Shown here piece by piece: positions 16,571 to 55,332 of a DNA stretch of 64,000 nt. Both the position numbers and the translations under genes were made by a program. Below the pieces are notes generated by a model. The model worked only from the letters and a program-made list of their open reading frames with translations. It had not been told where the DNA came from and did no database searches. The DNA is from Bolinopsis microptera. Its lineage: Eukaryota > Ctenophora > Tentaculata > Lobata > Bolinopsidae. Position 1 is the stretch's first letter. Each line of letters starts with the position of its first letter. The stretch lies in the NCBI RefSeq assembly GCF_026151205.1, contig NC_087073.1, forward strand, positions 1,302,001-1,366,000, given 5' to 3'.

Positions 16571-19500
16571 CTGCCAGGATCATCGAAGTATAAATGTAGT
16601 TGCTGAGCAACAGAGTCTTGGAACTGAAGAATAGCTCTCCACTCCTTCAAACAAAAGGTAATCTCTCTGTCTACTGATACATCGTAGCAGGAGAACTCAG
16701 TGCTAGCTAACCGCATTTCAGTCTGCAGCACCTGGAACAGTACCAAGTTGGAACAGTGCCAAGTTGGAACAGTGCCAAGTTGGAACAGTGCCAAGTTGGA
16801 ACAGTGCCAAGTTGGAACAGTGCCAAGTTGGAACAGTGCCAAGTTGGAACAGTGCCAAGTTGGAACAGTGCCAAGTTGGAACAGTGCCAAGTTGGAACAG
16901 TGCCAGGTTGGAACAGTACCAAGTTGGAACAGTGCCAAGTTGGAACAGTGCCAGGTTGGAACAGTGCCAAGTTGGAACAGTGCCAAGTTGGAACAGTGCC
17001 AGGTTGGAACAGTACCAAGTTGGAACCAGGGGTGTAGGAAGAGTGGGGGCAGGGGGGGCGACCGCCCCCCCCCCCCATAAAATCTGGAAAAGGGGCGAAA
17101 AGGGGCCAACTTTTTCAAGTAAATTAGCAGGATACAATCCAGCTGTGAGCTGGCATGAACATGAAATCTGATAATTTATATTACATATTCCGATATTACA
17201 TGTCAGGATTCATCAGAAGTTCAGGAACCTAGCGATTATAAAATTCAGATAACATTGCTGGTTACTCTTCTATGCCGTGTTCAGTATTTTCAATACCAGA
17301 ATCTTTCAATGAACCAGAAATCTGTTAATTTATATTACATATTCTGATATTAAACGGGTAGCTGATTTTGATAAAATAACATCGTGATCCGGCGTGATCA
17401 ATTATTTTAATTGAAGTACAACGGCTGCACCCCTGACTTTTTAACTTAACAAGAGACGTATAATGTATATATTAGGACATTTGTAATTTGATAAAATTTA
17501 AAGTTTTGGTGTGTGAATTAAAGGTCTTTAAAACAAAACATATTACATGTCAGGATTCATCAGAAGTTCAGAAGCCTAGCGAGTATAAAATTCAGATAAC
17601 ATTACTGATTACTTTTTTATGCCGTGGGAGTAAATTAGTAAGACACAGTTTGCCCCTTGTAGTCCAAATTTACATTACCTCATTGCTAGAATTCGTTCCT
17701 TAAAACAAATTTTCCAAGAATTGTTCCAGTTTCTCCTTCCTTGCATGTTGTACCCTCTTTGAGAGTGAGACCTATAACTGTAAGAATATTTTTCAAAATT
17801 TGCAGGACATTTCCTTTGACCCTTAATTAAATGGGCACAACAAAATCTTTCTGGATTTATCATTTCACATTGCTAGATTTCAATTCTGGAAGCAAATTTC
17901 CTGAAATTCTTTTCCAGAGAATGCAATATGCACCCCTTTTTCGAACTACACTTATTTCGCAAGAGCTGCTTGCAGGCCCTAATAATTAATATGCATTTAA
18001 AATCGTATTATTTTAATCATTCTTGAAACTGTGTTTGAAAATGATCTCTATTGCCAAATTGCTCAGCTAGGCCTTTTACACGTTTTCAGGCTGTGGCCAA
18101 AGCGCGTGCTAAATTTGAAAAACTCTAAGATTTTGGCCCCCTCATGAAGAAAATCATTCCTACACCCCTGGTTGGAACAGTGCCAAGTTGGAACAGTGCC
18201 AAGTTGGAACAGTGCCAGGTTGGAACAGTGCCAGGTTGGAACAGTGCCAAGTTGGAACAGTGCCAAGTTGGAACAGTGCCAAGTTGGAACAGTGCCAAGT
18301 TGGAACAGTGCCAGGTTGGAACAGTGCCAGGTTGGAACAGTACCAAGTTGGAACAGTGCCAAGTTGGAACAGTGCCAGGTTGGAACAGTGCCAAGTTGGA
18401 ACAGTGCCAAGTTGGAACAGTGCCAGGTTGGAACAGTACCAAGTTGGAACAGTGCCAAGTTGGAACAGTGCCAAGTTAAAACACTGTATAATAATGGACT
18501 GATCTGTAGTCTGGGAGACAATTTCGCAATCAACACGTGATTTCAAAGAATTTATGATCTACAATTATAAGTCTCCAGACACAGTACAATTAATAAGAAT
18601 CGGGACGTTCTTTTAATTCCGACAAATATCCCGATAGTGATTCCGGCAACAATTCTAGAATATTCCAGAATATTCTATACTATTCTTTGATGTTATGTAA
18701 TGTTCTGTAATGTTCTGCAATGTTCTGTAATGTTCTGTAATGTTCTGTAATGTTCTGTAATGTTCTGTAATGTCCTGTAATGCTCTGTAATGTCCTGTAA
18801 TGTCCTGTAATGTCCTGTAATGTCCTGTAATGCTCTGTAATGCTCCGTAATGCTCTGTAATGTCCTGTAATGTTCTGTAATGTTCTGTAATGTTCTGTAA
18901 TGTTCTGTAATGTTCTGTAATGTTCTGTAATGTTCTGTAATGTTCTGTAATGTTCTGTAACGCTCTGTAATGTTCTGTAATGCTCTGTAATGCTCTGTAA
19001 TGCTCTGTAATGATCTGTAATGTTCTGTAACGCTCTGTAATGTTCTGTAATGCTCTGTAATGCTCTGTAATGCTCTGTAACGCTCTGTAATGTTCTGTAA
19101 TGCTCTGTAATGCTCTGTAATGATCTGTAATGCTCTGTAATACTCTGTAATGCTCTGTAATGTTCTGTAATGTTCTGTAATGTTCTGTAATGCTCTGTAA
19201 TGTTCTGTAATGTTCTGTAATGCTCTGTAATGTTCTGTAATGCTCTGTAATGCTCTGTAATGTTCTGTAATGTTCTGTAATGCTCTGTAATACTCCGTAA
19301 TGCGCTGTAATGCTCTGTAATGTTCTGTTATGCTCTGTAATGCTCTGTAATGCTCTGTAATACTCCGTAATGTTCTGTAATGTTCTGTAATGCTCTGTAA
19401 CGCTCTGTAATGTTCTGTAATGCTCTGTGACTGTAATGTTCTGTAATGTTCTGTAATGCTCTGTTATGCTCTGTAATGTTCTGTAATGTTCTGTTATGCT

Positions 19501-22500
19501 CTGTAATGCTCTGTAATGCTCTGTAATACTCCGTAATGCTCTGTTATGCTCTGTAATGTTCTGTAATGTTCTGTAATGCTCTGTAACGCTCTGTAATGCT
19601 CTGTAATGTTCTGTAATGTTCTGTAATGTTCTGTAATGCTCTGTTATGCTCTGTAATGTTCTGTAATGCTCTGTTATGCTCTGTAATGTTCTGTAATGTT
19701 CTGTAATGTTCTGTAATATTCTGTAATGTTCTGTAATGCTCTGTAATGCTCTGTAATGCTCTGTAACGCTCTGTAATGCTCTGTAATGTTCTGTAATGTT
19801 CTGTAATGTTCTGTAATGTTCTGTAATATTCTGTAATGTTCTGTAATGTTCTGTAATGTTCTGTTATGCTCTGTAATGCTCTGTTATGTTCTGTAATGCT
19901 CTGTAATGCTCTGTAATGCTCTGTAACGCTCTGTAATGTTCTGTAATGTTCTGTAATGTTCTGTAATGCTCTGTAATGCTCTGTAACGCTCTGTAATGTT
20001 CTGTAATGTTCTGTAATGCTCTGTAATGTTCTGTAACGCTCTGTAATGCTCTGTTATGTTCTGTAACAGTACCTTGCCGTACTGACTCTCCTCCTCTACA
20101 TAGTTACTGAGCATCGTGTGGTCATGTTTAGCGTTTAGGGTTATCTCCGCCACATTAGTAGGGAAATGTACGACGCAGTCTCCTAGAAACCTGGGACAAA
20201 CGGGATTAGAACGGTATTATGTGTACAGTATTGGTACTAGCATAATGGTATTATGTGTACAGTATTGGTACTAGCATAATGGTATTGTATGCTAGTACAG
20301 TATTGGTACTAGCATAATGGTATTGTATATGCTAGCACAGTATTGGTACTAGCATAATGGTATTATATGCTAGTACAGTATTGGTACTAGCATAATGGTA
20401 TTGTATGCTAGTACAGTATTGGTACTAGCATAATGGTATTATATGCTAGTACAGTATTGGTACTAGCATAATGGTATTATATGCTAGTACAGTATTAGTA
20501 CTAGCATAATAGTATTGTATGCTAGTACAGTATTGGTACTAGCATAATGGTATTATATGCTAGTACAGTATTGGTACTAGCATAATGGTATTGTATATGC
20601 TAGTACAGTATTGGTCTTTATATAAATTACAAGTTAACTCAAGTCACATAAACACTGAACCTTAGTCACAACAAACTGAACTAAAGAAATGACGTTGCTG
20701 TCAGAATAAAAACAAGAGTTTTTACAAAAACATAGACGGAAAGTTTCAATGTGAACACTTACTTTTGGTCTGAGACGATGTGAATGACAGAAGAGTTTTT
20801 ATTGAAGATAGCACTGAGTCCCTCGCATTCCTGGAACGTTAAGTTGAACTGCTTCTTTATTCCTGAAATCAGAAGAGTTGTAACATTACAGTGAACAGTC
20901 ATAGTACTGTTGCTAGGTTACTGTTGATAGGTTACTGTTGCTGGGTACTGTTGCTAGGTTACTGTTGCTAGGTTACTGTTGCTAGGTTACTGTTGCTAGG
21001 TACTGTTGCTAGGTTACTGTTGCTAGGTTACTGTTGCTAGGTTACTGTTGCTAGGTACTGTTGCTAGGTTACTGTTGCTAGGTTACTATTGCTGGGTTAC
21101 TGTTGCTAGGTTACTGTTGCTAGGTTACTGTTGCTAGGTTACTGTTGCTAGGTTACTGTTGCTAGGTTACTGTTGCTGGGTTACTGTTGCTAGGTTACTA
21201 TTGCTGGGTTACTGTTGCTAGGTTACTGTTGCTAGGTTACTGTTGCTAGGTTACTGTTGCTAGGTTACTGTTGCTGGGTTACTGTTGCTAGGTACTGTTG
21301 CTGGGTTGCTGTTGCTAGGTTACTGTTGCTAGGTTACTGTTGCTAGGTTACTGTTGCTAGGTTACTGTTGCTAGGTTACTGTTGCTGGGTTACTGTTGCT
21401 AGGTACTGTTGCTAGGTTACTGTTGCTAGGTTACTGTTGCTAGGTTACTGTTGCTAGGTTACTGTTGCTAGGTTACTGTTGCTAGGTTACTATTGCTGGG
21501 TTACTGTTGCTAGGTTACTGTTGCTAGGTTACTGTTGCTGGGTTATTGTTGCTAGGTACTGTTGCTGGGTTGCTGTTGCTAGGTTACTGTTGCTAGGTTA
21601 CTGTTGCTGGGTTACTGTTGCTAGGTACTGTTGCTAGGTTATTGTTGCTAGGTTACTGTTGCTAGGTTACTGTTGCTGGGTTACTGTTGCTAGGTTGCAG
21701 TTGCTAGGTTACAGTTGCTAGGTTACTGTTGCTAGGTTACTGTTGCTGGGTTACTGTTGCTAGGTTATTGTTGCTAGGTTACTGTTGCTAGGTTACAGTT
21801 GCTGGGTTACTGTTGCTAGGTTACTGTTGCTAGGTTACTGTTGCTGGGTTACTGTTGCTGGGTTACTGTTGCTAGGTTACTGTTGCTAGGTACTGTTGCT
21901 AGGTTACTGTTGCTAGGTTACTGTTGCTAGGTTACAGTTGCTAGGTTACTGTTGCTAGGTTACTGTTGCTAGGTTACTGTTGCTGGGTTACTGTTGCTAG
22001 GTACAGTTGCTGGATTACTGTTGCTACGTTACTATTGCTAGGTTACTGTTGCTAGGTTACTGTTGCTAGGTTACAGTTGCTAGGTTACTGTTGCTAGGTA
22101 CTGTTGCTGGGTTACTGTTGCTAGGTTACAGTTGCTAGGTTACTGTTGCTAGGTTACTGTTGCTAGGTTACTGTCGCTGGGTTACTGTTGTTAGGTTACT
22201 GTTGCTAGGTTACTGTTGCTAGGTTACTGTTGCTGGGTTACTGTTGCTAGGTACAGTTGCTGGGTTACTGTTGCTAGGTTACTGTTGCTAGGTTACTGTT
22301 GCTAGGTTACTGTTGCTAGGTAGAGGGCGAGCCCACTGCCCACCGATGGTAATACTAGTGCTTATCTCCCGACCAGCAAACTTAGCTACGATTAGATTTC
22401 AAACGAAAGATGAGCGACTTGCATATTTTCGCCGCAAAATTACTGATCACATTATAGAAAGTGAAACAGCGAAACAGAATATTTTAATACCTAAAAAGGA

Positions 22501-25017: not shown

Positions 25018-25513
25018 TCGGTTTCCATGGTGCTGCTAAACCGTCTACCTTTAAAAATCCATCTTGATTAAGAGGTTTCCTCAATTTCTTGGGTACACTT
25101 TACACAAAGATTACCATAGTAACACTACTAGTTACTATAGTTACACAAAGATTATCCTAAATTAGTTGTAAATTTCTTTGGTATGAGACAAGAGTGAGAC
25201 TCGTTAGGTGCTACACTACATAATATAGGAAAACAAGGTTTAAACTTTGGTATTTATTAATAACAATCAAAACATATACCAAAACTGAAATCGATTAATG
25301 AAAACAATATATAAACAAAATCATTTGAATCACTGAGGGTGGAATGTTAACTTGAATGACTATAATGATATCACGACTATAATTAAGAGATAAAACAAAA
25401 CATCACATTTTACCAAATCTTTAAAAGCCAGTTATGTCACTGAAGCCCAAATGCAAATGACGTTTGAAACAGAAGTTGCCAAAATTTAAAAACGCATAAA
25501 ATACTAAATAAAA
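25018..25513. other. Intergenic, RAD9 5' flank and FAD synthase 3' flank
   Basis: About 500 bases between the RAD9 start and the repeat at the FAD synthase stop. On the minus strand an AATAAA is present at 25,253-25,258 and could serve FAD synthase polyadenylation. A partly palindromic segment, AGTAACACTACTAGTTACT, lies near 25,118. No TATA-like promoter can be assigned with confidence. Confidence 0.4.
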
Positions 25514-25690
25514 CAGAGCACTTGAAACTTCACTTAGTTCTGCCAGCGCGCTAGATAAAACAGAGCACAAACTTCACTTAGTTCTGCCAGCACGCTAAAT
25601 AAAACAGAGCACAAACTTCACTTAGTTCTGCCAGCGCGCTAGATAAAACAGAGCACAAACTTCACTTAGTTCTGCCAGCGCGCTCCTTCG
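25514..25690. repeat. 44-bp repeat overlapping the FAD synthase stop codon
   Basis: Four tandem copies with exact 44-bp spacing (CACTTAGTTCTGCCAG at 25,531, 25,575, 25,619 and 25,663). The copy at the gene end encodes the last residues and stop of FAD synthase; the other three lie in its 3' flank and repeat the same AGAACTAAG stop region. One copy differs by AGCACGCTAA. The unit was evidently copied from the end of the coding sequence. Confidence 0.95.
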
Positions 25691-26836: not shown

Positions 26837-26958
26837 CTCACTTTCTTGCTTCATAGTACACATTCTCTAAATACCTAGGTGTTACTAGGGTGTTACTAAG
26901 GTGATACTAGGTGTTACTAGGGTGTTACTAACTCACTTTCTTGCTTCATAGTACACAT
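26837..26958. repeat. Duplicated 3' coding end with TTACTAGGG mini-repeats
   Basis: The 27-base end of the twin-CX9C coding region (26,932-26,958; minus-strand ATGTGTACTATGAAGCAAG then AAAGTGAG) is repeated exactly at 26,837-26,863. Between the copies are five short units of the GTGTTACTAG type. Minus-strand reading through the outer copy gives a different C-terminus (EAGSKG then stop), probably the older one. The inner copy carries GTGAGT, a consensus donor, and TTTAG precedes the outer copy, so the insert could be spliced as a small intron. Confidence 0.85.
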
Positions 26959-27518: not shown

Positions 27519-27869
27519 TCAAGATACAACTTCTTCTTTTTTATCAGGCTGATCTGATTTAGTAATGTTATCATTGAACCCGGGCTGATCTGATTTAGTA
27601 ATGTTATCATTGAACCCGGGCTGATCTGATTTAGTAATGTTATCATTGAACCCCAAATCATCTAAATCTTCACTAACCATCAGATCATTGTCCATTCTAC
27701 ACTGCAAATACTCTCTGCTCTCTACCCTGCACTTCCTCTGATTGTACTCATGTTCCTTTAAACAGGACATGAAGGTCTGCATAAGGGCCTTGCACTCTCC
27801 AAAGTGATCGAGAGGGAAGCTGCCCTTGTCGGGGGGTGAGCCTCGCGGAGTTTGCCGGGCCCAGTTCAT
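27519..27869 (-). CDS. COX19: COX19 cytochrome c oxidase assembly factor
   Basis: COX19 is a soluble twin-CX9C protein of the mitochondrial intermembrane space needed for copper handling and assembly of cytochrome c oxidase. The 116-residue reading contains the family signature PPDKGSFPLDHFGECK (residues 12-27) and the pairs C26-C36 and C47-C57. REYLQCRM matches the family end of the CHCH fold. Typical COX19 is about 90 residues; the excess comes from three in-frame copies of a 12-residue unit, GFNDNITKSDQP, encoded by a 36-bp tandem repeat at 27,544-27,651. A minus-strand AATAAA lies 16 bases after the stop (27,498-27,503). Single exon; the start agrees with the conserved N-terminal length. 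Confidence 0.95.
   Translation of the reverse strand: MNWARQTPRGSPPDKGSFPLDHFGECKALMQTFMSCLKEHEYNQRKCRVESREYLQCRMDNDLMVSEDLDDLGFNDNITKSDQPGFNDNITKSDQPGFNDNITKSDQPDKKEEVVS
27544..27651 (-). repeat. 36-bp coding minisatellite in COX19
   Basis: Three identical 36-bp units keep the reading frame and encode three GFNDNITKSDQP units after the CHCH fold. The first part of the unit, LGFND, corresponds to the normal conserved LGFGD-like region of COX19, so the repeat was formed by duplicating the native C-terminus. Confidence 0.95.
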
Positions 27870-28199: not shown

Positions 28200-30345
28200 A
28201 CACAAAACAAGTGTTAACAAGTTAAAAACAGATATATAAACTTTATACTGGCACGAGATGAAATACCCGAGGGGTAGGAAAGGAAACAAGAGATAAATTA
28301 TGCGAGGTAATGTGAGAATTCGGTTCAGTTATGACTCATTTAAATGTTCTGACGTCATAGTTAATAGAATCAGTGCCACGAAAATAACCCAGAAAAATAT
28401 GCGGTTTTAAAGACCGCAACAATTTCCGCTACTTCGTAATCCTGATTATTGCCCGGCAGATTCCTAGTTCGCATACAATCATTATCGTAGTTGACTGAGC
28501 TGTAATATGTTCATGTTGTCGAACTTACCCCGAGCTACTAGAACTTTTTTGTTTTGCTTAATTAAATTATTCGGGGGGGACAATTGGTATTTTTTTGCAA
28601 AACTTGATTTCGAGATAGCAGTTTGACCAACAAACTAGGATATATTTTGCCATGCAAAATTCAGAATTTGGCAGCCAAATTTTTTTGAGGTCTAAATCAA
28701 AAATTCGTTCCTAAAATAAGGTGGAAATGCGATTAAGAGTCGATTCCGAAAATTTCATGCAAAAATTTTAAAAACTGATTGAGTTGTTACAATTTTAATG
28801 AGATCAATTCCGCGAATATCGAAAACCAAGATACAGGCACTTTTGTTTATTTTTTGCGGTCTTTTCGCCTTAGTATCCACATTTAAACAGATATAAAGCT
28901 ATAACTTACAGAGAATATGTAGTTTAGGCTTACCTTTCATATAAAAAATATTGATATTTGACCAATTTATGGGCCGAAATCTATCAAATTTGTTGCGTAT
29001 GCCCAAATATGGGCATATGGTTTTTGGCTCATAACTCAGTAATTTGTTGTCCAATCTTGATGAAATTTCATATACGAGTTCAGGAGACCACTAGCTACAA
29101 TTAGAGCACCTAAAACCTGGGTTTTTGACATGTTCAGGGTATTTGGCCAAATTAGGTCTGTTTGTTAATACAAAATTATAACAACAATTCGTCACAAGAG
29201 AACAGAGAACAGTAAATTAAATTTCAGAGTTGCTTGATAATACAAATATTATATATTGTATATAAATTTTTTGTTGTAAGTTTATTTTGTTTAGCATTTT
29301 ATTCAATGACAAAAGATAAAAAATTCCTGAAACCCACCGTTGTATTGTAAAGAAGCAAATTATGATTAGCTTTTCTGTGAATAATTTAAAATTCATTTCA
29401 CAAAAAATGAATATCATACTCAATTAACGACTCGTGCCCGAACAAAAAACAATTTGAAAACTTAAGAATTATACACCGGGAAGCTTGCAATATTGATCAT
29501 GACTGATAACAACTGAATCCTACAGTTCAAGTTTAGGCCACAAGGTTGAAACAATTATTGTTCAAATGATAATTGGTACCTAGTGGTTCAATTAGTGGTA
29601 CCTATATTGGTACCTAGTGGTTCCGAAAGAAAGATATTATATTGTCAATAATATCAAACATTCAATTAAAAATAATCTGAAATCATAAGACAGCATTAAG
29701 GTTTGTGTCGGCCAACCCAAATGACCTCAAAAATGTGTTTATTCAACTGGAAAGTTGACCTTTTGGACCTCAAAGTCAAACAACGAATTTAGGCATATTT
29801 TTCGTTTTTCATATTAAAATGGAAGTGGAAAATAACCGCAACTAGCATATTTATATTATATGAGTTATGAATAAAAAAACACCCGAAAATGCTTCCTTTT
29901 AAATTTATGGTAGAAAATGTGATTTTTTCTAACAAAACAATCCATTGTTCATTGACGGACTTTTTGGTCAAAACAATCCTGAAAAGAAAAATTACCAATT
30001 TTTGACTTTCAAAATGTATAAAAACACAGCCTTTTCAGATGCGATATCAAGATTTTACACACATCTTGAACAAGATATGAATAAACTTCGTGCAAAATTT
30101 CAGCTCAATATCACAACAAATTATTGACTTAAAGCCTCTAAACAAAACAAATTGTGCTTTTTCCGAAAAATGCACTTTAACCAGGAAATGCTCGATTACA
30201 GAAATCGGTATTCTCAAAGAACCATTTGTTGGTGTGGAAACGGTGCGCTAGATGAGCACTGAACTTCCTATGAGTTCATTTGGGCTGGAAATTTTTGGTG
30301 TATGCCCCCTTAACCACCCTCGCCATAATTCGTCAATCCAAGATC
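28200..30345. other. Gene-free region with mobile-element-like sequence
   Basis: I find no coding segment. A short hairpin, TATGCCCA-AATA-TGGGCATA, lies near 28,998-29,017. Imperfect inverted arms CCAACCCAAATGACCTCA (about 29,711) and TGAGTTCATTTGGGCTGG (about 30,279) enclose about 590 bases and may be the ends of an old miniature element; no target duplication is evident. The sequence between is AT-rich with no significant frame. Short repeats of GGTACCTA/GGTTC occur near 29,575-29,625. Confidence 0.45.
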
Positions 30346-31703
30346 TTGATTTAGTCAAGTCTGAAAATCTACAATTCCAGTGACAAGAGCTGAGGGGTGA
30401 TCTTGATTTAGTCAAGTCTGAAAATCTACAATTCCAGTGACAAGAGGCGTGATCTTGATTTAGTCAAGTCTGAAAATCCACAATTCCAGTGACAAGAGGG
30501 GTGATCTTGATTTAGTCAAGTCTGAAAATCCACAATTCCTGTGACAAGAGGGGTGATCTTGATTTAGTCAAGTCTGAAAATCTACAATTCCAGTGACAAG
30601 AGGGGTGATCTTGATTTAGTCAAGTCTGAAAATCTACAATACCAGTGACAAGAGGCGTGATCTTGATTTAGTCAAGTCTGAAAATCCACAATTCCTGTGA
30701 CAAGAGGGGTGATCTTGATTTAGTCAAGTCTGAAAATCTACAATTCCAGTGACAAGAGGGGTGATCTTGATTTAGTCAAGTCTGAAAATCTACAATACCA
30801 GTGACAAGAGGCGTGATCTTGATTTAGTCAAGTCTGAAAATCCACAATTCCTGTGACAAGAGGCGTGATCTTGATTTAGTCAAGTCTGAAAATCCACAAT
30901 TCCAGTGACAAGAGGCGTGATCTTGATTTAGTCAAGTCTGAAAATCCACAATTCCAGTGACAAGAGGCGTGATCTTGATTTAGTCAAGTCTGAAAATCTA
31001 CAATTCCAGTGACAAGAGGGGTGATCTTGATTTAGTCAAGTTTGAAAATCTACAATTCCAGTGACAAAAGGCGTGATCTTGATTTAGTCAAGTCTGAAAA
31101 TCCACAATTCTAGTGACAAGAGGCGTGATCTTGATTTAGTCAAGTCTGAAAATCTACAATTCCAGTGACAAGAGGGGTGATCTTGATTTAGTCAAGTCTG
31201 AAAATCTACAATTCCAGTGACAAGAGGGGTGATCTTGATTTAGTCAAGTCTGAAAATCCACAATTCCAGTGACAAGAGGCGTGATCTTGATTTAGTCAAG
31301 TCTGAAAATCCACAATTCCAGTGACAAGAGGGGTGATCTTGATTTAGTCAAGTCTGAAAATCTACAATTCCAGTGACAAGAGGCGTGATCTTGATTTAGT
31401 CAAGTCTGAAATCCACAATACCAGTGACAAGAGGCGTGATCTTGATTTAGTCAAGTCTGAAAATCTACAATTCCAGTGACAAGAGGGGTGATCTTGATTT
31501 AGTCAAGTCTGAAAATCTACAATTCCAGTGACAAGAGGCGTGATCTTGATTTAGTCAAGTCTGAAAATCTACAATTCCAGTTACAAGAGGGGTGATCTTG
31601 ATTTAGTCAAGTCTGAAAATCCACAATCCCAGTGACAAGAGGGGTGATCTTGATTTAGTCAAGTCTGAAAATCCACAATTCCAGTGACAAGAGGCGTGAT
31701 CTT
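30346..31703. repeat. 52-bp minisatellite entering the zinc-finger gene 3' end
   Basis: About 26 units with 52-bp spacing, each containing GATCTTGATTTAGTCAAG, TCTGAAAATC and CAGTGACAAGAGG. Variation is limited to TCTACA/TCCACA, CAGTG/CTGTG and GGGGT/GGCGT. The unit nearest the zinc-finger gene encodes, on the minus strand, the final 14 residues and stop of that gene (KITPLVTGIVDFQT). TTGATTTAGTCAAG contains the inverted arms TTGA/TCAA. Confidence 0.96.
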
Positions 31704-36900: not shown

Positions 36901-38739
36901 GTACCATTTATCAATTAGTATATCAAAATATGTCATGGTAATTTTGCATGGCTGAAATGTAACGCTTGATTTATATATATAATAATTAATTGAATTTTCA
37001 AAAAAAAATATATATATATATTATTGAATATTACAGTTAGCTCCTAAATAAACCTTCCACTGAAGTCAAGAAATCGCTGAGGTTTTCTTTCATTTTCCCT
37101 TTGCATAGTTTGTTGTAGTCCGGCATGAGTCCAGTCTGGTTAAGGAGATCACCTTGTGCAGTTAGATGTCCTTGAGGTAACTCTGAAATATTTACATTAC
37201 TTGAGGTAACTCTGAAATATTTACATTACTTGAGGTAACTCTGAAATATTTACATTACTTGAGGTAACTCTGAAATATTTACATTACTTGAGGTAACTCT
37301 GAAATATTTACATTACTTGAGGTAACTCTGAAATATTTACATTACTTGAGGTAACTCTGAAATATTTACATTACTTGAGGTAACTCTGAAATATTTACAT
37401 TACTTGAGGTAACTCTGAAATATTTACATTACTTGAGGTAACTCTGAAATATTTACATTACTTGAGGTAACTCTGAAATATTTACATTACTTGAGGTAAC
37501 TCTGAAATATTTACATTACTTGAGGTAACTCTGAAATATTTACATTACTTGAGGTAACTCTGAAATATTTACATTACTTGAGGTAACTCTGGAATATTTA
37601 CATTACTTGAGGTAACTCTGAAATATTTACATTACTTGAGGTAACTCTGAAATATTTACATTACTTGAGGTAACTCTGAAATATTTACATTACTTGAGGT
37701 AACTCTGGAATATTTACATTACTTGAGGTAACTCTGAAATATTTACATTACTTGAGGTAACTCTGAAATATTTACATTACTTGAGGTAACTCTGAAATAT
37801 TTACATTACTTGAGGTAACTCTGAAATATTTACATTAATTGAGGTAACTCTGAAATATTTACATTACTTGAGGTAACTCTGAAATATTTACATTACTTTA
37901 GGTAACTCTGAAATATTTACATTACTTGAGGTAACTCTGAAATATTTACATTACTTGAGGTAACTCTGAAATATTTACATTACTTGAGGTAACTCTGAAA
38001 TATTTACATTACTTGAGGTAACTCTGAAATATTTACATTACTTGAGGTAACTCTGAAATATTTACATTACTTGAGGTAACTCTGAAATATTTACATTACT
38101 TGGGGTAACTCTGAAATATTTACATTACTTGAGGTAACTCTGAAATATTTACATTACTTGAGGTAACTCTGAAATATTTACATTACTTGGGGTAACTCTG
38201 AAATATTTACATTACTTGAGGTAACTCTGAAATATTTACATTACTTGAGGTAACTCTGAAATATTTACATTACTTGAGGTAACTCTGAAATATCTACATT
38301 ACTTGAGGTAACTCTGAAATATTTACATTACTTGAGGTAAGTCTGAAATATTTACATTACTTGAGGTAACTCTGAAATATTTACATTACTTGAGGTAACT
38401 CTGAAATATTTACATTACTTGAGGTAACTCTGAAATATTTACATTACTTGAGGTAACTCTGTAATATTTACATTACTTGAGGTAACTCTGAAATATTTGC
38501 AAAAATTGAATGTAAGAATTTGAATAATGGTACATTATGTAAAATACAGCAAGTAAATAAATCTAAAAATATGTTTTTACTTATAACTGAGATACTTAAA
38601 TAATGCAAGCTGTATGTATTATGCAATAATGATAATGCTTTTAGGTACCTGCTGGTGACGTATGAAGATAGAAAGGAGAACTTTTCACTTTTTTCTCCTC
38701 TTGAACGTGATTAGCATGTTTATCTTTTCCTTCCAGCGT
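33951..38739 (-). CDS. MED19: MED19 Mediator subunit (5' exon incomplete)
   Basis: MED19 is a head/hook-associated Mediator subunit linking regulators to RNA polymerase II. Minus-strand exons: 38,649-38,739 at most (5' edge unresolved; an in-frame TGA at 38,740-38,742 bounds it), 37,054-37,182, 35,035-35,244 and 33,951-34,003 with TGA. Phases agree across all junctions. The joined reading contains SSPFYLHTSPAELPQGHL, the MED19 motif PDYNKLCKGKMKENLSDFL, LTGLLRKPPS, LNPLSYEQISAFKLQPGRL and a lysine/arginine-rich tail (HRKKKKRRDHEDGEG, KKHRRKKKKRE), all in the order of vertebrate MED19. The initiating Met is not found; it should be on an upstream exon. A 29-bp minisatellite containing the acceptor of the second exon fills its preceding intron, and a MITE sits in the third intron. 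Confidence 0.92.
34396..34964. mobile_element. Mariner-type MITE in a MED19 intron
   Basis: Terminal inverted repeats of about 31 bases, starting CAGGGTGTACC and including AAAGTGTGACTTTTTT, face each other at 34,396 and 34,964 with two mismatches. The element is flanked by TA on each side, the target duplication typical of Tc1/mariner elements. At 569 bases with no transposase reading it is non-autonomous. It contains two copies of CTCGATTTTCACTACG near 34,760 and 34,784. Confidence 0.88.
35245..36225. other. MED19 intron 2, single-copy sequence
   Basis: No exon or element recognised. A perfect 16-base palindrome, CTCACGATATCGTGAG, lies near 35,622-35,637 in a locally GC-rich stretch with repeated CGAGATTT. 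CAGTGGTTACTATAGTTACC near 35,778 resembles the GGTTACT cores of nearby minisatellites. Confidence 0.4.
36229..36303 (-). other. tRNA-like remnant (pseudogene or SINE head)
   Basis: On the minus strand an A-box-like TAGCACGATGG and a B-box-like GGTTCGAGTCT are about 35 bases apart within a 70-base tRNA-sized segment. The T and anticodon stems do not pair well, so it is not a functional tRNA gene. It is most likely a tRNA pseudogene or the head of a degraded SINE. Confidence 0.5.
36518..36547. repeat. Poly-G tract
   Basis: A run of more than 20 G, followed by TGGGG, within MED19 intron 2. Such runs are unstable and hard to sequence; the true length is uncertain. A TATATA-rich stretch follows at about 36,974-37,021. 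Confidence 0.85.
37171..38498. repeat. 29-bp minisatellite carrying a MED19 3' splice site
   Basis: About 46 tandem units with exact 29-bp spacing. Plus-strand unit: CTTGAGGTAACT followed by CTGAAATATTTACATTA. On the minus strand each unit reads TAAATATTTCAG then AGTTACCTCAAG, that is, a polypyrimidine/AG acceptor plus the first 12 bases of the MED19 exon. Only the unit at 37,171-37,190 is joined to the rest of the exon; any other unit followed by the array would meet an in-frame TAA. Variants are few (GGGGTAAC, GGAATATT), indicating recent amplification. Confidence 0.97.
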
Positions 38740-40362: not shown

Positions 40363-40494
40363 CACAACCAGGAAGTTAACACTAACAGCTACCAAGCACC
40401 AGGAAATTTCTCTTTCAGATATCAGGTTAAAAGATAGTACACGCACAAATGACGGCACGTTAGACACAGATACCTAGCTCTAAGAGCTATTAAA

Positions 40495-40800: not shown

Positions 40801-41248
40801 AGCTAAGGGCTCATCTTGAGGCCATCACATTTAACTTAGGATTAGGGGACGGGGTTAGCTTTGCCACACTCTTCATTAAAATGTGACTTGACGCTCTACA
40901 ATCATCTAGTAGCAGCAGAGTTTGACGGGCACCCTTACTGGTTCTAATCAGTTTCTACAGCTGAAGATCTCAACGCTCGAAAACAGTTCATCTCGGACAT
41001 CCTGCAGAGATGCTTTATCACAGCCTGTCCCATTACACAGGGAACCTTTAGATCTACAGTACCCTGGTGGACAGCATAGCTCACTAAAGCATAGCGGACC
41101 TCTTTAGTTCTGAGACGCAAAGCTAACCGGACCAGGAATAAACAACAATTCAATGCTTCGGGGATGCAAATAGGACATACAACTTTTAACATACAAACTT
41201 TGGATTCAATTTGTTAGCTCGATGTTACATGGTAACAATACAGGACAG

Positions 41249-45696: not shown

Positions 45697-48600
45697 CTAA
45701 AGTAGTAGGACGAGTAGAGGTAGAGCTGCAGCCAGTGAAAGGGAGAACGAGACAGCGTCAGACTCAGTGTCAGTGTCAGTGTCAGTGTCAGTGTCAGTGT
45801 CAGTGTCAGTGTCAGTGTCAGTGTCAGTGTCAGACTCAAACTTGATATCACCTGAAAGAGTTATAAATTGAGAAATAATAATATTGAGGAGCACTAACTA
45901 CTACAGTTTGGGAGAAAGGAAAAAGCAGCGGTAATTCGGGGTTTGCGGTAAATCGGGGTTTGCAGTAAATCGGGGTTTTACTATATTACAGAATGGTTCA
46001 GAAACAATTATAAAATCTACCACAGTTCTCTTACTTTTGGTGATCCCATCAGACCGGCCAACCCAGAATAGTTATCACTGACATTTGAACTATTGTTAGT
46101 AATTAAAAACTCACAATGGTCGTCCGCGTCCAGCAGTTTTATAACCACGTCTCCCTTCTGGCTGTCATACACAGCCTGCACGTCAGAACATGTTATCGAG
46201 TGAGGCACGCATTGCTTTAGAAGAATTGACACGTTCTCAATCTCAAAATTCTCCATATTGTCGAAGCTAAATTCGAAGCTGAAGAATTTGATTTAAGTGT
46301 TAAATTCAATTTATAATATCAAATTACATCGGACTAAGCATTTTGACGATCAGGTGTTTTAAGTATTGCAGGGTTATTGTATTCAGTTAAACAAAAATCA
46401 CAATGCTGGCAAGCATGACCGCGCCTCTTAACAGTTATATTCACAATACTATTTACCCCCTTTACTATTTACCACCTTTACTATTTACCCCCTTTACTAT
46501 TTACCCCCTTTACTATTTACCACCTTTACTATTTACCCCCTTTACTATTTACCACCTTTACTTTTTACCCCCTTTATTATTTACCCCCTTAACTATTTAC
46601 CACCTGTACTTTTAATATACCCCCTTTACTAGTATACCCCTTTACTATAATTATACCTCTTTATTGTTTTTCAGGCATTAAGACTCATAGAAAGTAGTTC
46701 AGCAGGTATATTTAAGTTCAAAACATTCTAATTCAATGTTTAAGATGACAGGAATAAGAAATAGTTATGTGAAGGTTTTTAAGAAATTTGCGCAAAATAC
46801 GCGCCTGCAGCATGTTTTACGAAATTCGGTAAAAAACCCAAAATCGCCATATTCAGGTGCCTTAAAATCATGTTAAAATTGAGTTAGAGATCTGAAACTT
46901 TGCAGGGCGTGACCCAGAGGCACATATTAGGTGCGATGGGTGCGGGATCGCACAATTTACCGTTTTCCGCACATTTCCACATAATTTATTGTTTTCCGCA
47001 CATTTTGTAATTTTCTGCATATTTCCGCATAATCTAGCATTTCCCGCGTAATTTCGCATAATTTTTAAATTTTCGCGTTAAGATTTTCGAGTGTAAAAAC
47101 CAAAAAGTCTTTAAAAGTCGGGCCCTTTTAGGACCGTGACTCAGGCCCTTTCGGGACCCTGACCCAGGCCCTTTTGGAACTCATACCTAGGCCACGTGAC
47201 CCAGTTACCACGTGACCCAGGCCCTTTTGGGACCCTGACCGAGGCCCTTTCGGGACCGTGACCCAGGCCCTTTTGGAACTCATGCCTAGGCCACGTGACC
47301 CGGTTACCACGTGACCCAGGCCCTTTCGGGACCGTGACCCAAGCCCTTTCGGGACCGTGACCCAGGCCCTTTCGGGACCGTGACCCAGGCCGTTATGGAA
47401 CCCTCGTCGTTACCGTATTTCGATTATAGTGTATCAGTTATCATTCGTAACTTCACCACATCATCTGATTACTCTATATATCACATCACAACGTCATGGA
47501 CCGTTTCCTAAAGAAACGAACAGCTACAGACAATGACCCATCATCAAGCTCATCACACAAGAAACAGAAGATACCTGCATCAGCAAAACAAGGGGATATC
47601 TCAGCAGCATGGCGAGCTCAAGAGTTTGGTTCACATTTTTACGAATCTGGGGGGAAGAGAGGCGTCTTCAAATAACTGTCTCCTGATCTCTACCAGATCA
47701 AGTCACTGTTCTCGGATAACTGAATCTCAATATAGTTATTGTGAATATAACAGCAACGGTAATGCTTGCCAGCATTGTGATATGATTGTTAGCGGCCAAA
47801 GAAGCTATATTCACTCGGCGGCTGGTGACATTTAATGAAAAATTTGCTAGACTGGGGTCAGATAGAATGGGGTCAGATAGCGCCCCATTAGCGATAATAT
47901 GGCACGAAGCTACCTATTGCTGGGAGGAAAGATGAGAACGTATCTTCAACCTAGGTCAATGCTATAAGGTATTTTACTGAAGACAGAATTGGTGAAAGTC
48001 GGGAAATTATTCTGTGAGTGTGGGCAGACAATTGTTCCGCTCAGAACAAATGCTAGACGGCTTTGTACTACGGCTTACACTGCGTTATGTTCGCTCATAA
48101 ACAGCCCTGACCTCGATCTTGACACGATAACACTATAACAGTGAAATATCTGGAGCCAGGCCATACGTTCAGGAGCGCTGACTCGTTCCACCATAAAGTG
48201 GAACTGTCCATCAAACAGTGCGGACAGCTACATAATTATGACTTATGAGGACTTTGTTGGTACAGTGGAAAAGGTGATACTGCTGTTTCTAATTTCTATG
48301 GCCTGTTCGGACTTTCATTCTTGGCCTAGGTCACGTCATATCGGACAAGCAACCGCTGCAAAACAGAAAGACCACTGCTCGAGAAGGTTATCAGGTTTCA
48401 GCGTGGCTCGGTCCAAATGGAATGGAAATCAGAGCACAACGAGGTTTCCTTCCGTTCTGCTCCATTTCTGCGGCAGAAAGAAGAGAATCATAGCTTTCCC
48501 ACAAAATCAACCACAGGGTATAGCAAGCAAAGAAAGATATGGTTCAAAAACTTTGTAGACTTATGAGCCCCCGCAGTCGAGTATTTTGGGTTGATCTTCC

Positions 48601-51600
48601 CAGCTCTGACCATGTAGCAGATCTCAATAGAGAATTTTATTAATATTTATTAATGAGTATTTTCATTTACCAGTTATTTATGTACAGGATTATTTACAAT
48701 TATATTATATTACCGTTATATTTTTATACGCTTGTTTTTCTTTGCCTTATAGGCTATTGGTGACTAGGCTACTGGTTACTAGACTACTAGTTACTAGGTT
48801 CCTTCTCATGGGCAACCATGGGGATTTGATAGGTTCCTGGTTATTATAAAGTTACTAGGTTACTAGGTTATTAGGTTCCTGGTTATTAAGTTACTAGGTT
48901 ACTAGGTTACTTGTTACTAGGTTACTGGTTACCAGGTTAATGGTTACTAGGTTACCGATTTCTTGGTTACTGGTTACTGTATTTATCAGAGAGTACCTGA
49001 GTTTCATTGAGACTGTCGCACACTCCATGTTGCTATCCTCACACGTTACCATCTCCGGGGTCTTACAGTCAGCTGAAAGGGAATCACATTACATAACCCC
49101 TCTCCAGACACATTACAGAACCCCTCTAGACACATTACAGAACCCCCTCCAGACACATTACAGAACCCCCTCCAGACACATACAGAACCCCCTCCAGACA
49201 CATTACAGAACCCCCTCCAGACACATTACAGAACCCCCTCCAGACACATTACAGAACCCCCTCCAGACACATTACAGAACCCCCTCTAGACACATTACAG
49301 AACCCCCTCCAGACACATTACAGAACCCCCTCCAGACACATTATAGAACCCCCTCCGGTACATTACAGAACCCCCTCCCAGACACATTAGAGAACCCCTC
49401 CAGACACATTACAGAACCCCCTCCAGACACATTACAGAACCCCCTCCAGACACATTACAGAACCCCCTCCAGACACATTACAGAACCCCCTCCAGACACA
49501 TCACAGAACCCCCTCCAGACACATTACAGAACCCCCTCCAGACACATTACAGAACCCTCTCCAGACACATTACAGAACCCCCTCCCAGACACATTACAGA
49601 ACCCCCTCCAGACACATTACAGGACCCCCTCCAGACACATTACAGAACCCCCTCCAGACACATTACAGAACCCCCTCTAGACACATTACAGAACCCCCTA
49701 CAGACACATTACAGAACCCCCTCCCAGACACATTACAGAACCCCCTCCAGACACATTACAGAACCCCCTCCAGACACATTACAGAACCCCCTCCAGACAC
49801 ATTACAGAACCCCCTCCAGACACATTACAGAACCCCTCCAGACACATTACAGAACCCTCTCCAGACACATTACAGAACCCCCTCGAGACACATTACAGAA
49901 CCCCTCCAGACACATACAGAACCCCCTCTAGACACATTACAGAACCCCCTCCAGACACATTACAGAACCCCCTTCAGACACATTACAGAACTCCCTCCAG
50001 ACACATTACAGAACCCCTCCAGACACATTACAGAACCCCCTCCAGACACATTACAGAACCCCCTCCAGACACATTACAGAACCCCCTCCAGACACATTAC
50101 AGAACCCCCTCCAGACACATTACAGAACCCCCTCCAGACACATTACAGAACCCCCTCCAGACACATTACAGAACCCCCTCCAGACACATTACAGAACCCC
50201 CTCCCAGACACATTACAGAACCCCTCCAGACACATTACAGAACCCTCTCCAGACACATTACAGAACCCCCTCGAGACACATTACAGAACCCCTCCAGACA
50301 CATACAGAACCCCCTCTAGACACATTACAGAACCCCCTCCAGACACATTACAGAACCCCCTTCAGACACATTACAGAACTCCCTCCAGACACATTACAGA
50401 ACCCCTCCAGACACATTACAGAACCCCCTCCAGACACATTACAGAACCCCCTCCAGACACATTACAGAACCCCCTCCAGACACATTACAGAACCCCCTCC
50501 TGACACATTACAGAACCCCCTCCAGACACATTACAGAACCCCCTCCAGACACATTACAGAACCCCCTCGAGACACATTACAGAACCCCCTCCAGACACAT
50601 TACAGAACCCCCTCCAGACACATTACAGAACCCCCTCCAGACACATTACAGAACCCCCTCCAGACACATTACAGAACCCCCTCCAGACACATTACAGAAC
50701 CCCCTCCAGACACATTACAGAACCCCCTCCAGACACATTACAGAACCCCCTCCTGACACATTACAGAACCCCCTCCAGACACATTACAGAACCCCCTCCA
50801 GACACATTACAGAACCCCCTCGAGACACATTACAGAACCCCCTCCAGACACATTACAGAACCCCCTCTAGACACATTACAGAACCCCCTCCAGACACATT
50901 ACAGAACCCCCTCTAGACACATTACAGAACCCCCTCCAGACACATTACAGAACCCCCTCCAGACACATACAGAACCCCCTCCAGAAACATTACAGAACCC
51001 CTCCAGACACATACAGAACCCCCTCTAGACACATTACAGAACCCCTCCAGACACATTACAGAACCCCTCCAGACACATTACAGAACCCCTCCAGACACAT
51101 ACAGAACCCCCTCTAGACACATTACAGAACCCCCTCCAGACACATTACAGAATCCCCTCCAGACACATTACAGAACCCCTCCAGACACATTACAGAACCC
51201 CCTCCAGACACATTACAGAACCCCCTCCAGACACATTACAGAACCCCTCCAGACACATACAGAACCCCCTCCAGACACATTACAGAACCCCCTCCAGACA
51301 CATTACAAAACCCCTCCAGACACATTACAGAACCCCCCCCCCAGACACATTACAGAACCCCTCCAGACACATTACAGAACCCTCTCCAGACACATTACAG
51401 AACCCCCTCCAGACACATTACAGAACCCCCTCCAGACACATTACAGAACCCGTCCAGACACATACAGAACCCCCTCTAGACACATTACAGAACCCCCTAC
51501 AGACACATTACAGAACCCCATTCAGACACATTACAGAACCCCCTCCAGACACATTACAGAACCCCTCCAGACACATACAGAACCCCCTCTAGACACATTT

Positions 51601-54600
51601 CAGAACCCCCTCCAGACATATTACAGAACCCCCTTCAGACACATTACAGAACCCCCTCCAGACACATTACAGAACCCCTCCAGACACATACAGAACCCCC
51701 TCTAGACACATTACAGAACCCCCTCCAGACACATTACAGAACCCCCTTCAGACACATTACAGAACTCCCTCCAGACACATTACAGAACCCCTCCAGACAC
51801 ATTACAGAACCCCCTCCAGACACATTACAGAACCCCCTCCAGACACATTACAGAACCCCCTCCAGACACATTACAGAACCCCCTCCAGACACATTACAGA
51901 ACCCCCTCCAGACACATTACAGAACCCCCTCCAGACACATTACAGAACCCCCTCCAGACACATTACAGAACCCCCTCCCAGACACATTACAGAACCCCTC
52001 CAGACACATTACAGAACCCTCTCCAGACACATTACAGAACCCCCTCGAGACACATTACAGAACCCCTCCAGACACATACAGAACCCCCTCTAGACACATT
52101 ACAGAACCCCCTCCAGACACATTACAGAACCCCCTTCAGACACATTACAGAACTCCCTCCAGACACATTACAGAACCCCTCCAGACACATTACAGAACCC
52201 CCTCCAGACACATTACAGAACCCCCTCCAGACACATTACAGAACCCCCTCCAGACACATTACAGAACCCCCTCCAGACACATTACAGAACCCCCTCCAGA
52301 CACATTACAGAACCCCCTCCAGACACATTACAGAACCCCCTCCCAGACACATTACAGAACCCCCTCCAGACACATTACAGAACCCCCTCCAGACACATTA
52401 CAGAACCCCCTCGAGACACATTACAGAACCCCCTCCAGACACATTACAGAACCCCCTCTAGACACATTACAGAACCCCCTCCAGACACATTACAGAACCC
52501 CCTCTAGACACATTACAGAACCCCCTCCAGACACATTACAGAACCCCCTCCAGACACATACAGAACCCCCTCCAGAAACATTACAGAACCCCTCCAGACA
52601 CATACAGAACCCCCTCTAGACACATTACAGAACCCCTCCAGACACATTACAGAACCCCTCCAGACACATTACAGAACCCCTCCAGACACAGACAGAACCC
52701 CCTCTAGACACATTACAGAACCCCCTCCAGACACATTACAGAATCCCCTCCAGACACATTACAGAACCCCTCCAGACACATTACAGAACCCCCTCCAGAC
52801 ACATTACAGAACCCCCTCCAGACACATTACAGAACCCCTCCAGACACATACAGAACCCCCTCCAGACACATTACAGAACCCCCTCCAGACACATTACAAA
52901 ACCCCTCCAGACACATTACAGAACCCCCCCCCCCAGACACATTACAGAACCCCTCCAGACACATTACAGAACCCTCTCCAGACACATTACAGAACCCCCT
53001 CCAGACACATTACAGAACCCCCTCCAGACACATTACAGAACCCCTCCAGACACATACAGAACCCCCTCTAGACACATTACAGAACCCCCTACAGACACAT
53101 TACAGAACCCCATTCAGACACATTACAGAACCCCCTCCAGACACATTACAGAACCCCTCCAGACACATACAGAACCCCCTCTAGACACATTTCAGAACCC
53201 CCTCCAGACATATTACAGAACCCCCTTCAGACACATTACAGAACCCCCTCCAGACACATTACAGAACCCCTCCAGACACATACAGAACCCCCTCTAGACA
53301 CATTACAGAACCCCCTCCAGACACATTACAGAACCCCATCCAGACACATTACAGAACCCCCTCCAGACACATTACAGAACCTCCTCCAGACACATTACAT
53401 AACCCCCTCCAGACACATTACAGAACCCCCTCCAGACACATTACAGAACCCCCTCCAGACACATACAGAACCCCCTCTAGACACATTACAGAACCCCCTC
53501 CAGACACATTACAGAACCCCCTCCAGACACATTACAGAACCCCCTCTAGACACATTACAGAACCCCCCCAGACACATTACAGAACCCCCTCCAGACACAT
53601 TACAGAACCCCCTCCAGACACATTACAGAACCCCCTCCAGACACATTACAGAACCCCTCCAGACACATACAGAACCCCCTCCAGACACATTACAGAACCC
53701 CCTCCAGACACATTACAAAACCCCTCCAGACACATTACAGAACCCCCCCCCCCCCCCAGACACATTACAGAACCCCTCCAGACACATTACAGAACCCTCT
53801 CCAGACACATTACAGAACCCCCTCCAGACACATTACAGAACCCCCTCCAGACACATTACAGAACCCCTCCAGACACATACAGAACCCCCTCTAGAGTCTA
53901 GACACATTACAGAACCCCCTCCAGACACATTACAGAACCCCCTCCAGACACATTACAGAACCCCCTCCAGACACATTACAGAACCTCCTCTATACAGTGG
54001 CGTAACTTTGCCTGTTGGCGCCCCCTCCCCTTTTGGCGCCCCTCCCTAAAATTAAACAAATTGTGTGATTTTAGAGGATACCGATAAAATCTCTTAAAAA
54101 ATGTGTTTCTAGAGCAAAGCGCGCAGTTTTTTTAGTACCCCCTTAGTCTTAAACTCGTACTTTCATTACTGAATCAAATGAGCAGAAATCATTACAGATC
54201 TTTAAAAATATTTTTGCACGATTTGCACGATTTAACAAATTTCTTGAATGAGGAAACAGTAAAAGCTTGAAAAACAAAAGGTCAGGAAACCGAGGGCCGA
54301 TAAGAAATCGTGACAACTTCACTCATACGAAGCAAAGAAGTTGAAAAGAATTCGACACGAGATGACACTTACCTCCAGCTGCTGGTTACTAGGCTACTGG
54401 TTACTAGGGTACTGGTTACTAGACTACTGTGTACTAGGTTACTAGGCTACTGGTTACTAGGTTATTAGGCTACTGGTTACCAGGTTACTGGTTACTAAGC
54501 TACTGGTTACTAGGCTACTGGGTAGTGGGTACTAGGTTACTAGGCTACTGGTTACTAGGTTATTAGGCTACTGGTTACCAGGTTACTGGTTACTAAGCTA

Positions 54601-55332
54601 CTGGTTACTAGGCTACTGGTTATTAGGTTACTGGTTACTAGGTTACTAGGCTACTGGTTACTAGGCTACTGGTTACTAGGTTACTAGGCTACTGGTTACT
54701 AGGTTATTAGGCTACTGGTTACTAGGTTACTGGTTACTAGGCTACTGGTTACTAGGCTACTGGTTACTAGGTTACACTTACATCCAGCTACTGGTTACTA
54801 GGCTACTGGTTACTAAGCTAATGGTTACTATGTTACTGGTTACTAGGCTACTGGTTATTAGGTTACTAGGCTACTGGTTACTAGGTTACTAGGCTACTGG
54901 TTACTAGGTTACTAGTCTACTGGTTACTAGGTTACTAGGCTACTGGTTATTAGGGTACTAGGCTACTGGTTACTAGGTTACTAGGCTACTGGTTACTAGG
55001 TTACTAGTCTACTGGTTACTAGGTTACTAGGCTACTGGTTACTGGGCTACTGGTTACTAGGCTACTGGTTAGTGGTTACTAGGTTACACTTACCTCCAGC
55101 TACTGGTTACTAGGCTACTGGTTACTAAGCTACTGGTTACTAAGCTACTGGTTACTAGGCTACTGGTTACTAGGCTACACTTACCTTGTCCTTCAGAAAA
55201 ACTTTGCTCAAAAGCGGCCTTCTCCTCATCCGATAAATCGCTCACATTAGTTGTGTCGGCAGTAAGGCAGTTAGGGCACTGAAGACCGTAACCAACAGTG
55301 AATATTCCGAGTAAAAGAAGTAGAGAGTTCAT
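45697..55332 (-). CDS. Ly6/uPAR-like GPI-anchored surface protein
   Basis: Four minus-strand exons: 55,185-55,332, 48,997-49,072, 46,035-46,278 and 45,697-45,840. GT-AG borders and phases fit and give 203 residues. The N-terminus, MNSLLLLLGIFTVGYG, is a signal peptide followed by LQCPNC, the usual start of Ly6/uPAR domains. Exon 2 adds DCKTPEMVTCEDSNMECATV and exon 3 adds KQCVPHSITCSD and HCEFLITNNSS. A run of TD dipeptides follows, then ESDAV and a hydrophobic C-terminus (SLAAALPLLVLLL), a typical GPI-attachment signal. The last exon can be entered at CAAG before TTTGAG to keep the frame; TTTCAG eleven bases upstream is an alternative that would change the frame. The canonical final Cys-Asn is not seen. 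No orthologue named. The gene is stretched by intronic minisatellites. Confidence 0.82.
45765..45833 (-). repeat. (GTGTCA)n coding microsatellite, TD repeat
   Basis: About eleven hexanucleotide units encode Thr-Asp repeats just before the GPI-attachment region of the Ly6-like protein. The units are in frame, so length changes would alter only the spacer between domain and membrane. Confidence 0.95.
46448..46640. repeat. 16-bp minisatellite (CCCCTTTACTATTTAC)
   Basis: About 12 units alternating CCCC and CCAC, degrading towards the right end. It lies in intron 2 of the Ly6-like gene. Confidence 0.92.
47118..47398. repeat. 23-bp minisatellite with higher-order unit
   Basis: Units contain GGGACCGTGACCCAGG and CCCTTTC or CCCTTTTG. 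A larger block including GGAACTCATACCTAGGCCACG, split as GGAACTCATACC and TAGGCCACGTGACCC, is repeated once. The contained CACGTGACC motifs resemble E-boxes by chance of the unit. Confidence 0.9.
47496..47675 (+). pseudogene. hAT-transposase-like N-terminal fragment
   Basis: A 59-codon frame begins MDRFLKKRTATDNDPSSSSS and continues HKKQKIP, the style of hAT-family and zinc-finger-MYM-like transposase N-termini. The frame stops at TAA and later parts (such as a WHEATYCWEER-like reading near 47,900) are out of frame. It is a weak call based on composition and the MDRFLK start. Confidence 0.4.
47786..48744. other. Ly6-like intron 2, unclassified
   Basis: No exon recognised. The sequence may continue the decayed transposase of the preceding entry. 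A plus-strand 106-codon frame at 48,238-48,558 has no domain I can name. Confidence 0.35.
48745..48985. repeat. TACTGGTTACTAGGT minisatellite, Ly6-like intron 2
   Basis: Irregular 14-15-base units of GGTTACTAGG type run up to within about 10 bases of the donor of exon 2 of the Ly6-like gene. The same unit family occupies intron 1 next to the exon 1 donor (54,375-55,180). Confidence 0.88.
49087..53992. repeat. 23-bp minisatellite, about 210 copies
   Basis: Unit of 23 bp, CAGACACATTACAGAAC plus CCCCTC, with frequent 22- and 24-base variants. It begins about 15 bases from the exon 2 acceptor of the Ly6-like gene and fills most of intron 1. Rare variants recur at fixed distances: long C runs at about 51,330 and 52,925, GAATCCCC at about 51,150 and 52,743, and CCCATTCAG at about 51,506 and 53,107, showing a ~1.6-kb higher-order duplication. 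Shorter block copies, marked by GAACTCCC, occur at about 49,988, 50,376, 51,762 and 52,149. Confidence 0.96.
53996..54368. mobile_element. hAT-like element end, truncated
   Basis: CAGTGGCGTAACTTTGCC directly follows the minisatellite and looks like a hAT-type 5' terminus, with GGCGCCCC-rich sequence after it. No matching right terminus or target duplication is found before the next array, so the copy appears truncated. Confidence 0.5.
54375..55180. repeat. GGTTACTAGG-type minisatellite, Ly6-like intron 1
   Basis: Units of about 15 bases (TAGGCTACTGGTTAC) with many variants. At 54,368, 54,775 and 55,086 the array contains ACTTACCTCCAGCT or ACTTACATCCAGCT; on the minus strand these give GTAAGTGT, an exact copy of the donor core of exon 1 (at 55,177-55,184). 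The array thus contains three extra donor-like sites. Confidence 0.92.

Follow-up and report, generated by a model that had tools for sequence, protein, structure and literature searches.

Minisatellites that span splice acceptors and stop codons in the ctenophore Bolinopsis microptera

Why should tandem repeats begin and end at the edges of exons? The question is raised by a stretch of 64,000 nucleotides (nt) of the ctenophore Bolinopsis microptera (NCBI RefSeq assembly GCF_026151205.1, 264.65 Mb in 232 contigs; contig NC_087073.1, C2:1302001-1366000), hereafter called the window. An earlier note on this DNA had claimed that in six of seven host genes a minisatellite overlaps or abuts an exon edge, and had suggested a process that duplicates sequence at exon boundaries. 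We find here that stretches with a splice acceptor in them, or with the final codons and stop codon of a gene, are copied head to tail, and that the number of units differs greatly between copies of the same locus. The reading that we favour, with a probability of about 0.65, is that these are boundary-spanning (mirage-type) minisatellites, produced by frequent tandem duplication and growth and retained where one intact boundary survives. Positions are those of the window, the window genes and arrays described below all lie on the minus strand, and the exon edges of the gene models are precise to ±1-2 nt.

In the MED19 gene, a 29-base-pair (bp) unit is repeated 45.8 times (37171..38498) and the array enters the exon at 37054..37182 by 12 bases, the acceptor of this exon lying inside the last array unit. 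Each unit is composed of the intron end (AAGTAATGTAAATATTTCAG) and of AGTTACCTCAAG, the latter being the 12 bases with which the exon opens; the presence of the acceptor and 12 coding bases in the unit, as the earlier note had described it, is thereby verified. The units carry TTTCAG followed by AGTTACCTCAAG and so join an intronic and an exonic part, which is the hallmark of mirage minisatellites. The acceptor (CAG) and all 12 coding bases are intact in 41 of the approximately 46 units: the pattern CAGAGTTACCTCAAG occurs 41 times, and the shorter AGAGTTACC(T/C)CAA 44 times. The gene model has a Pfam Med19 match in the exon at 37054..37182, a single frame through to the stop when the last three exons are joined, and an alignment of the first two of these, joined, with MED19 in solved Mediator structures. 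A second, shorter array (14-bp repeat in 2.6 copies, 33919..33955) overlaps the end of the same gene by 5 bp, over its stop codon (TGA, 33951-33953).

The region containing MED19 and a neighbouring zinc-finger gene (29755-41248) has an inverted copy about 180 kb away (L009, G000:C2:1154000-1163999). The two copies are 96.6% identical over 5807 aligned bases outside the arrays, with one 1.1-kb piece at 99.1%, and the window copy carries several large insertions, the largest of 1258 bp. The pair is either a segmental duplication or an assembled second haplotype. Between the window and the second copy, the number of units is 45.8 versus 82.2 in the MED19 array, 26.1 versus 23.1 in the zinc-finger array and 3.0 versus 2.1 in an 18-bp repeat, and a 48-bp doubling is present in the window copy only. 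The MED19 figures amount to the length instability expected of a mirage minisatellite, here between locus copies, perhaps haplotypes, and not between population alleles. Together, the differences in copy number and the doubling found in one copy point to continuing tandem duplication and array turnover.

The same architecture is found outside the window. The best match to the MED19 array, apart from the MED19 copies themselves, lies on C1 in a gene with immunoglobulin (Ig) domains, where an array of 14-16 copies (positions 3954-4477 of stretch L010) repeats a CAG and the coding bases GTACCACAATGA. The following exons, when joined, hold the Ig domains recognized by Pfam. The exon of 41 amino acids (aa) that adjoins the array has no Pfam match and is based on an open frame and an AG.

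Stop codons are covered in a similar manner. A 44-bp array in four copies (25504..25684) takes in the final codons of the FAD synthase gene (25662-26342) together with its stop, overlapping the gene by 23 bp, and a 52-bp array in 26 copies (30342..31703) holds the last coding stretch and the stop of the zinc-finger gene (31659-32645), with an overlap of 45 bp. An array whose period is scored as 11 or 21 (26877..26930) overlaps the twin-CX9C gene (26917-27189, stop at 26917) by 14 bp. These measurements agree with the three stop-region repeats of the earlier note. The alignment of the FAD synthase protein with that of a solved structure (8ron, also a FAD synthase) extends to the last residue of the 8ron chain, and for this reason we take its stop region to be ancestral. 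The zinc-finger protein has a Pfam match, as does a COX19-like protein (CHCH) encoded nearby. Neither the twin-CX9C gene nor a Ly6-like gene discussed below has a Pfam match at 0.01, and the models of both are based solely on open frames and GT/AG signals.

In the twin-CX9C gene, an identical 27-bp coding stretch, ATGTGTACTATGAAGCAAGAAAGTGAG, stands on both flanks of the array (upstream copy, 26932..26958; second copy across the array, 26837..26863), resembling the outcome of a duplication with filler. The array might possibly be spliced out as an intron. A resembling arrangement was noticed at L051 2323-2480, where a stretch of about 29 bp, with mismatches, flanks a 10-bp array on both sides. 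The twin-CX9C array is the clear gene case in a scan for flank duplications covering 126 arrays in five stretches (the window, two 50-kb stretches, L010 and L011). Insertion with target duplication was rejected as a general origin of the arrays, seven of the 126 scoring above the 99th percentile of pairs made from mismatched flanks.

The units of the arrays that overlap coding edges measure 29, 44, 52 and 14 bp, none of them a multiple of three; the period of a fifth, the twin-CX9C array, is scored as 11 or 21. The one inside the coding sequence of the CHCH protein, which we take to be COX19, is of 36 bp, repeated three times in frame near the C-terminus (27547..27653). That in a doubtful exon of the Ly6-like gene is of 6 bp. 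COX19, whose repeat lies 28 bp before the stop, is the exception among the seven modelled genes: array-to-edge distances uphold the count of six out of seven, in each of which an array covers an exon edge or comes as close to it as about 20 bp.

We may ask whether such proximity is simply due to the abundance of repeats, given that 50 merged arrays of all periods add up to 18,225 bp, or 28% of the window, and that the 42 of them in the gene region cover 38.6% of that region. An array ends no more than 20 bp away from seven of the 20 splice edges, compared with 1.81 expected when the arrays are re-placed avoiding exons (three of 2000 placements reach seven); by type, these are three of ten acceptors and four of ten donors. 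Arrays overlap four of five stops, with 0.37 expected and none of 2000 placements equalling this. No start out of five has an array within 50 bp (0.87 expected), which is uninformative on its own. These final counts exclude the edges and the stop of the doubtful last Ly6-like exon; with it, they become 8/22 splice edges versus 2.03 and 4/6 stops versus 0.45. When arrays are shuffled inside their own introns, an array comes within 20 bp of five of 18 intron ends, compared with 1.02 expected (P = 0.002), or 5/20 versus 1.34 with the doubtful Ly6-like intron kept (P = 0.003). All P values for the window are post hoc and overstated, because the hypothesis was formed on this same window.

In RAD9, six exons join into a single open frame that aligns end to end with residues 12-244 of RAD9A. 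A 16-bp array (16733..17026) reaches the acceptor of the exon at 16571-16731 with a gap of 1 bp, and a 10-bp array in 138 copies (18690..20066) begins 6 bp past the donor (20073) of the preceding exon (20073-20190), both as the earlier note had indicated. Furthermore, an 11-bp repeat in 3.6 copies (16528..16567) begins 3 bp into the intron that follows the exon at 16571-16731. The 16-bp minisatellite is split by a DNA-transposon-like element (17027..18170, with no strand assigned), presumably of the hAT type, with inverted ends CAGGGGTGTAGGAA/TTCCTACACCCCTG and an 8-bp target duplication, GTTGGAAC; the second part of the array lies beyond it (18171..18477). Elsewhere in the window, two very similar reading frames (56370-57311 and 60382-61182) look like reverse transcriptases.

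In the Ly6-like gene, exons 1-3 join into one frame, and arrays take up 94% of the first intron, leaving 6 bp free after its donor and 12 bp before its acceptor. This intron contains an array at 54378..55178, 6 bp past the donor of exon 1, and a 23-bp array in 215 copies (4.9 kb, 49085..53990) that stops 12 bp short of the acceptor of exon 2 (48997-49072). A further array (48851..48978) begins 18 bp past the donor of exon 2, so that the donors of this gene named in the earlier note do lie near arrays, at 6 and 18 bp. At exon 1, AGGTAAGTGT recurs at three places (55185, 55094 and 54373), and the copies have only about ten bases around the donor in common. The possible last exon, exon 4, contains the 6-bp repeat (45753..45833), and its model is doubtful since the GT donor gives a different frame, ending at about 45687. 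Beyond what had been noted before, the Ly6-like acceptor, the MED19 stop and one RAD9 donor are likewise near or overlapped by arrays.

A control set of introns was then assembled outside the window. Exons were found through the Pfam families dynein AAA_9, CCT, proteasome and HECT, together with two genes from other stretches; two arbitrary 50-kb stretches (C1 and C9) were poor in recognizable genes and contributed a K2P channel gene only. The 49 introns comprise 39 scored junctions and ten set by eye (four in K2P, six in the Ig gene). Splice-site scores were trained on the sites of the window, K2P and the Ig gene, and of the 48 exon-to-exon junctions, the nine whose model score did not exceed 2.5 were dropped. 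Only arrays with a period of at least 7 were counted here, compared with all periods in the window. The acceptor-overlapping array of the Ig gene, having been found through the MED19 array search, was excluded, and two other introns of this gene were counted; an array 2 bp from an acceptor in L062 is a pyrimidine tract and was excluded by hand after inspection. One counted intron (L053, a CCT gene) includes a stretch of N. Across their array-bearing introns, the models of K2P and CCT-gamma align unbroken with solved homologues. Among the dynein heavy-chain genes of several contigs (L012-L018), several have very long frames, uninterrupted for up to 3703 aa, and others have many exons.

Arrays are present in 12 of the 49 control introns, from eight genes. 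In seven of the 12 an array end lies within 30 bp of the acceptor, compared with 3.2 expected (P = 0.007), and in five within 20 bp (2.2 expected, P = 0.035); with the L062 tract retained, the former becomes 8/12 (P = 0.001). For arrays of at least 100 bp, the proportion near acceptors is 5/7 outside the window (2.2 expected, P = 0.015) and 8/13 when pooled with the window (P = 0.0003). At donors there is no excess outside the window (2/12 within 20 bp versus 2.2 expected). In a dynein intron on C12 an array begins at the donor GT. The seven acceptor cases come from three of the eight genes (K2P, three; Ig gene, two; CCT-gamma, two), whereas in the remaining five no array-bearing intron has an array end within 30 bp of its acceptor. 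Without the Ig gene, the count is 5/10 versus 2.7 expected (P = 0.06), and at the level of genes no acceptor excess is seen in the control (3/8 versus 2.4 expected, P = 0.45). The control thus speaks weakly for an excess at acceptors and does not speak for one at donors. The part of the earlier proposal that stands is the tandem duplication of boundary sequence, directly visible in MED19, the Ig gene and the FAD synthase and zinc-finger stops; the targeting of boundaries does not stand in the same way, the control excess being modest, confined to acceptors in three of eight genes and absent at donors and at the gene level.

How might such arrays come about? In the reading that we favour, the initial duplication would occur anywhere, at a high rate in a repeat-rich genome, through fill-in of staggered breaks and end joining or through slippage, and arrays would then grow by slippage or unequal exchange. 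Of the mechanisms put forward earlier, slippage and template switching are both possible. Selection would purge most duplications in coding sequence and spare those that bridge an acceptor, donor or stop. The latter would be tolerated because one intact boundary remains, namely the acceptor on the exon side or the first stop, so that boundaries would accumulate arrays without being targeted. That stops are overlapped but not starts, and that the units at edges are not multiples of three whereas that of COX19 is 36 bp, fit such a filter, in the few cases available.

Several observations weigh against this reading. Tolerance would lead one to expect arrays anywhere in introns, yet those of the window crowd the edges (5/18 versus 1.02), and acceptors are crowded outside it too (7/12 within 30 bp versus 3.2, P = 0.007); tolerance alone leaves this crowding unexplained. 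The contrasts between starts and stops and between unit lengths rest on very few cases, the latter being further weakened because the last Ly6-like exon is doubtful. Moreover, the splice copy actually used at each array is a prediction from sequence. Branch-point and pyrimidine stretches, if prone to slippage, could contribute a mutational bias of their own locally, as the CCT-gamma intron may illustrate: there the branch-point stretch is repeated and the array ends 3 bp before the acceptor.

The crowding is what one would expect if the duplication process itself favoured exon boundaries, chiefly acceptors, for example through breaks at branch-point and pyrimidine tracts or co-transcriptional structures. 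The window excess (7/20 splice edges versus 1.81), the control acceptors (7/12, P = 0.007; for arrays of at least 100 bp, 5/7, and 8/13 pooled) and the repeated branch-point stretch of CCT-gamma, 3 bp from its acceptor, all speak for it. Nevertheless, with a control excess drawn from three of eight genes (3/8 versus 2.4 at the gene level, P = 0.06 without the Ig gene) and donors outside the window at expectation (2/12 versus 2.2), we regard it as rather unlikely. A bolder form, in which arrays are born preferentially at acceptors and stops through boundary-linked break repair, so that boundaries would act as nurseries of minisatellites and occasionally of new introns (the twin-CX9C array being a possible newborn), appears to us more doubtful still.

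Sheer density, with introns so filled by arrays that contact with an exon is to be expected, is equally hard to credit. Arrays do make up 58% of the sequence of ten window introns, compared with 18% in 47 control introns, and arrays fill about four-fifths of two of the four introns of K2P. But the shuffle within introns preserves this density and yields fewer contacts, and density leaves unexplained the units that contain a splice site together with coding bases.

Mobile intron ends are a very improbable source. Such an introner-like element would have carried AAGTAATGTAAATAT, the 15 bases that the arrays of the unrelated MED19 (C2) and Ig (C1) genes have in common, into both. However, AAGTAATGTAAATATNNCAG has 112 exact matches in the genome, and the two MED19 arrays contain all of them, 43 falling in the window and 69 in L009; with the genome-wide search covering exact forms, the idea was rejected for this pattern. 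In addition, a likeness is expected because the MED19 array served as the query that led to the Ig locus. Finally, repair mediated by complementary DNA, or retro-repair, which the earlier note had suggested as a way of duplicating exon ends, finds no supporting case in the arrays examined and is practically untenable, as the MED19 and Ig-gene units hold intron sequence 5' of the AG, joined to exon sequence, which excludes a spliced template for both.

Boundary-spanning minisatellites have already been described in lancelets, and the window arrays belong to that known phenomenon. In the lancelet reports, the units of mirage minisatellites comprise an intron end, a splice site and an exon start, at either boundary, their copy number is unstable and the authentic exon retains one intact boundary (PMC3087553, PMC3902484). 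Splicing is described there as normal despite the extra splice signals, and somatic instability is reported for Adh3. The window arrays are alike in their boundary-spanning units, their unstable copy number and the retention of one intact exon boundary. Of the two kinds of boundary, the acceptor is clearly involved here, the recurring AGGTAAGTGT at Ly6-like exon 1 and the dynein intron on C12 being possible donor cases. They differ in that the host is a ctenophore, that MED19 has about 46 and 82 units compared with three and six in the globin BflGb6, that stop codons are spanned too, and that they are known here from DNA alone.

Other systems also bear comparison. In human IFI6 (6-16), minisatellite units are used as alternative splice donors (PMC4526556). 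The likeness lies in repeated donor sites derived from an array, perhaps at Ly6-like exon 1; the donors of IFI6 are in use, whereas the Ly6-like copies share just about ten bases around the donor. In the Rogers model (named in PMC3087553), introns are gained by tandem duplication. A duplicated segment with splice signals there becomes or lengthens an intron, which resembles the present arrays, for which no gained intron is demonstrated. The potato RdRp gene is reportedly a case of such a gain. Fill-in by Pol alpha-primase at broken ends gives small tandem duplications (PMC8355091), short head-to-tail copies that by analogy could seed arrays here. In the ctenophore Hormiphora, tandem repeats are given as 13% of the genome (PMC8527503). 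Among open-access publications, mostly at the level of their titles, we recognized no ctenophore case, no general account of boundary arrays and no stop-codon case.

The present arrays extend boundary-spanning minisatellites from lancelets to the very distant ctenophore lineage, with longer arrays, and to stops as well as splice sites. In MED19, dozens of intact acceptors precede one exon, an arrangement in nature that lends itself to asking how the spliceosome would choose the last among equals. Boundary arrays are also a proposed source of new introns.

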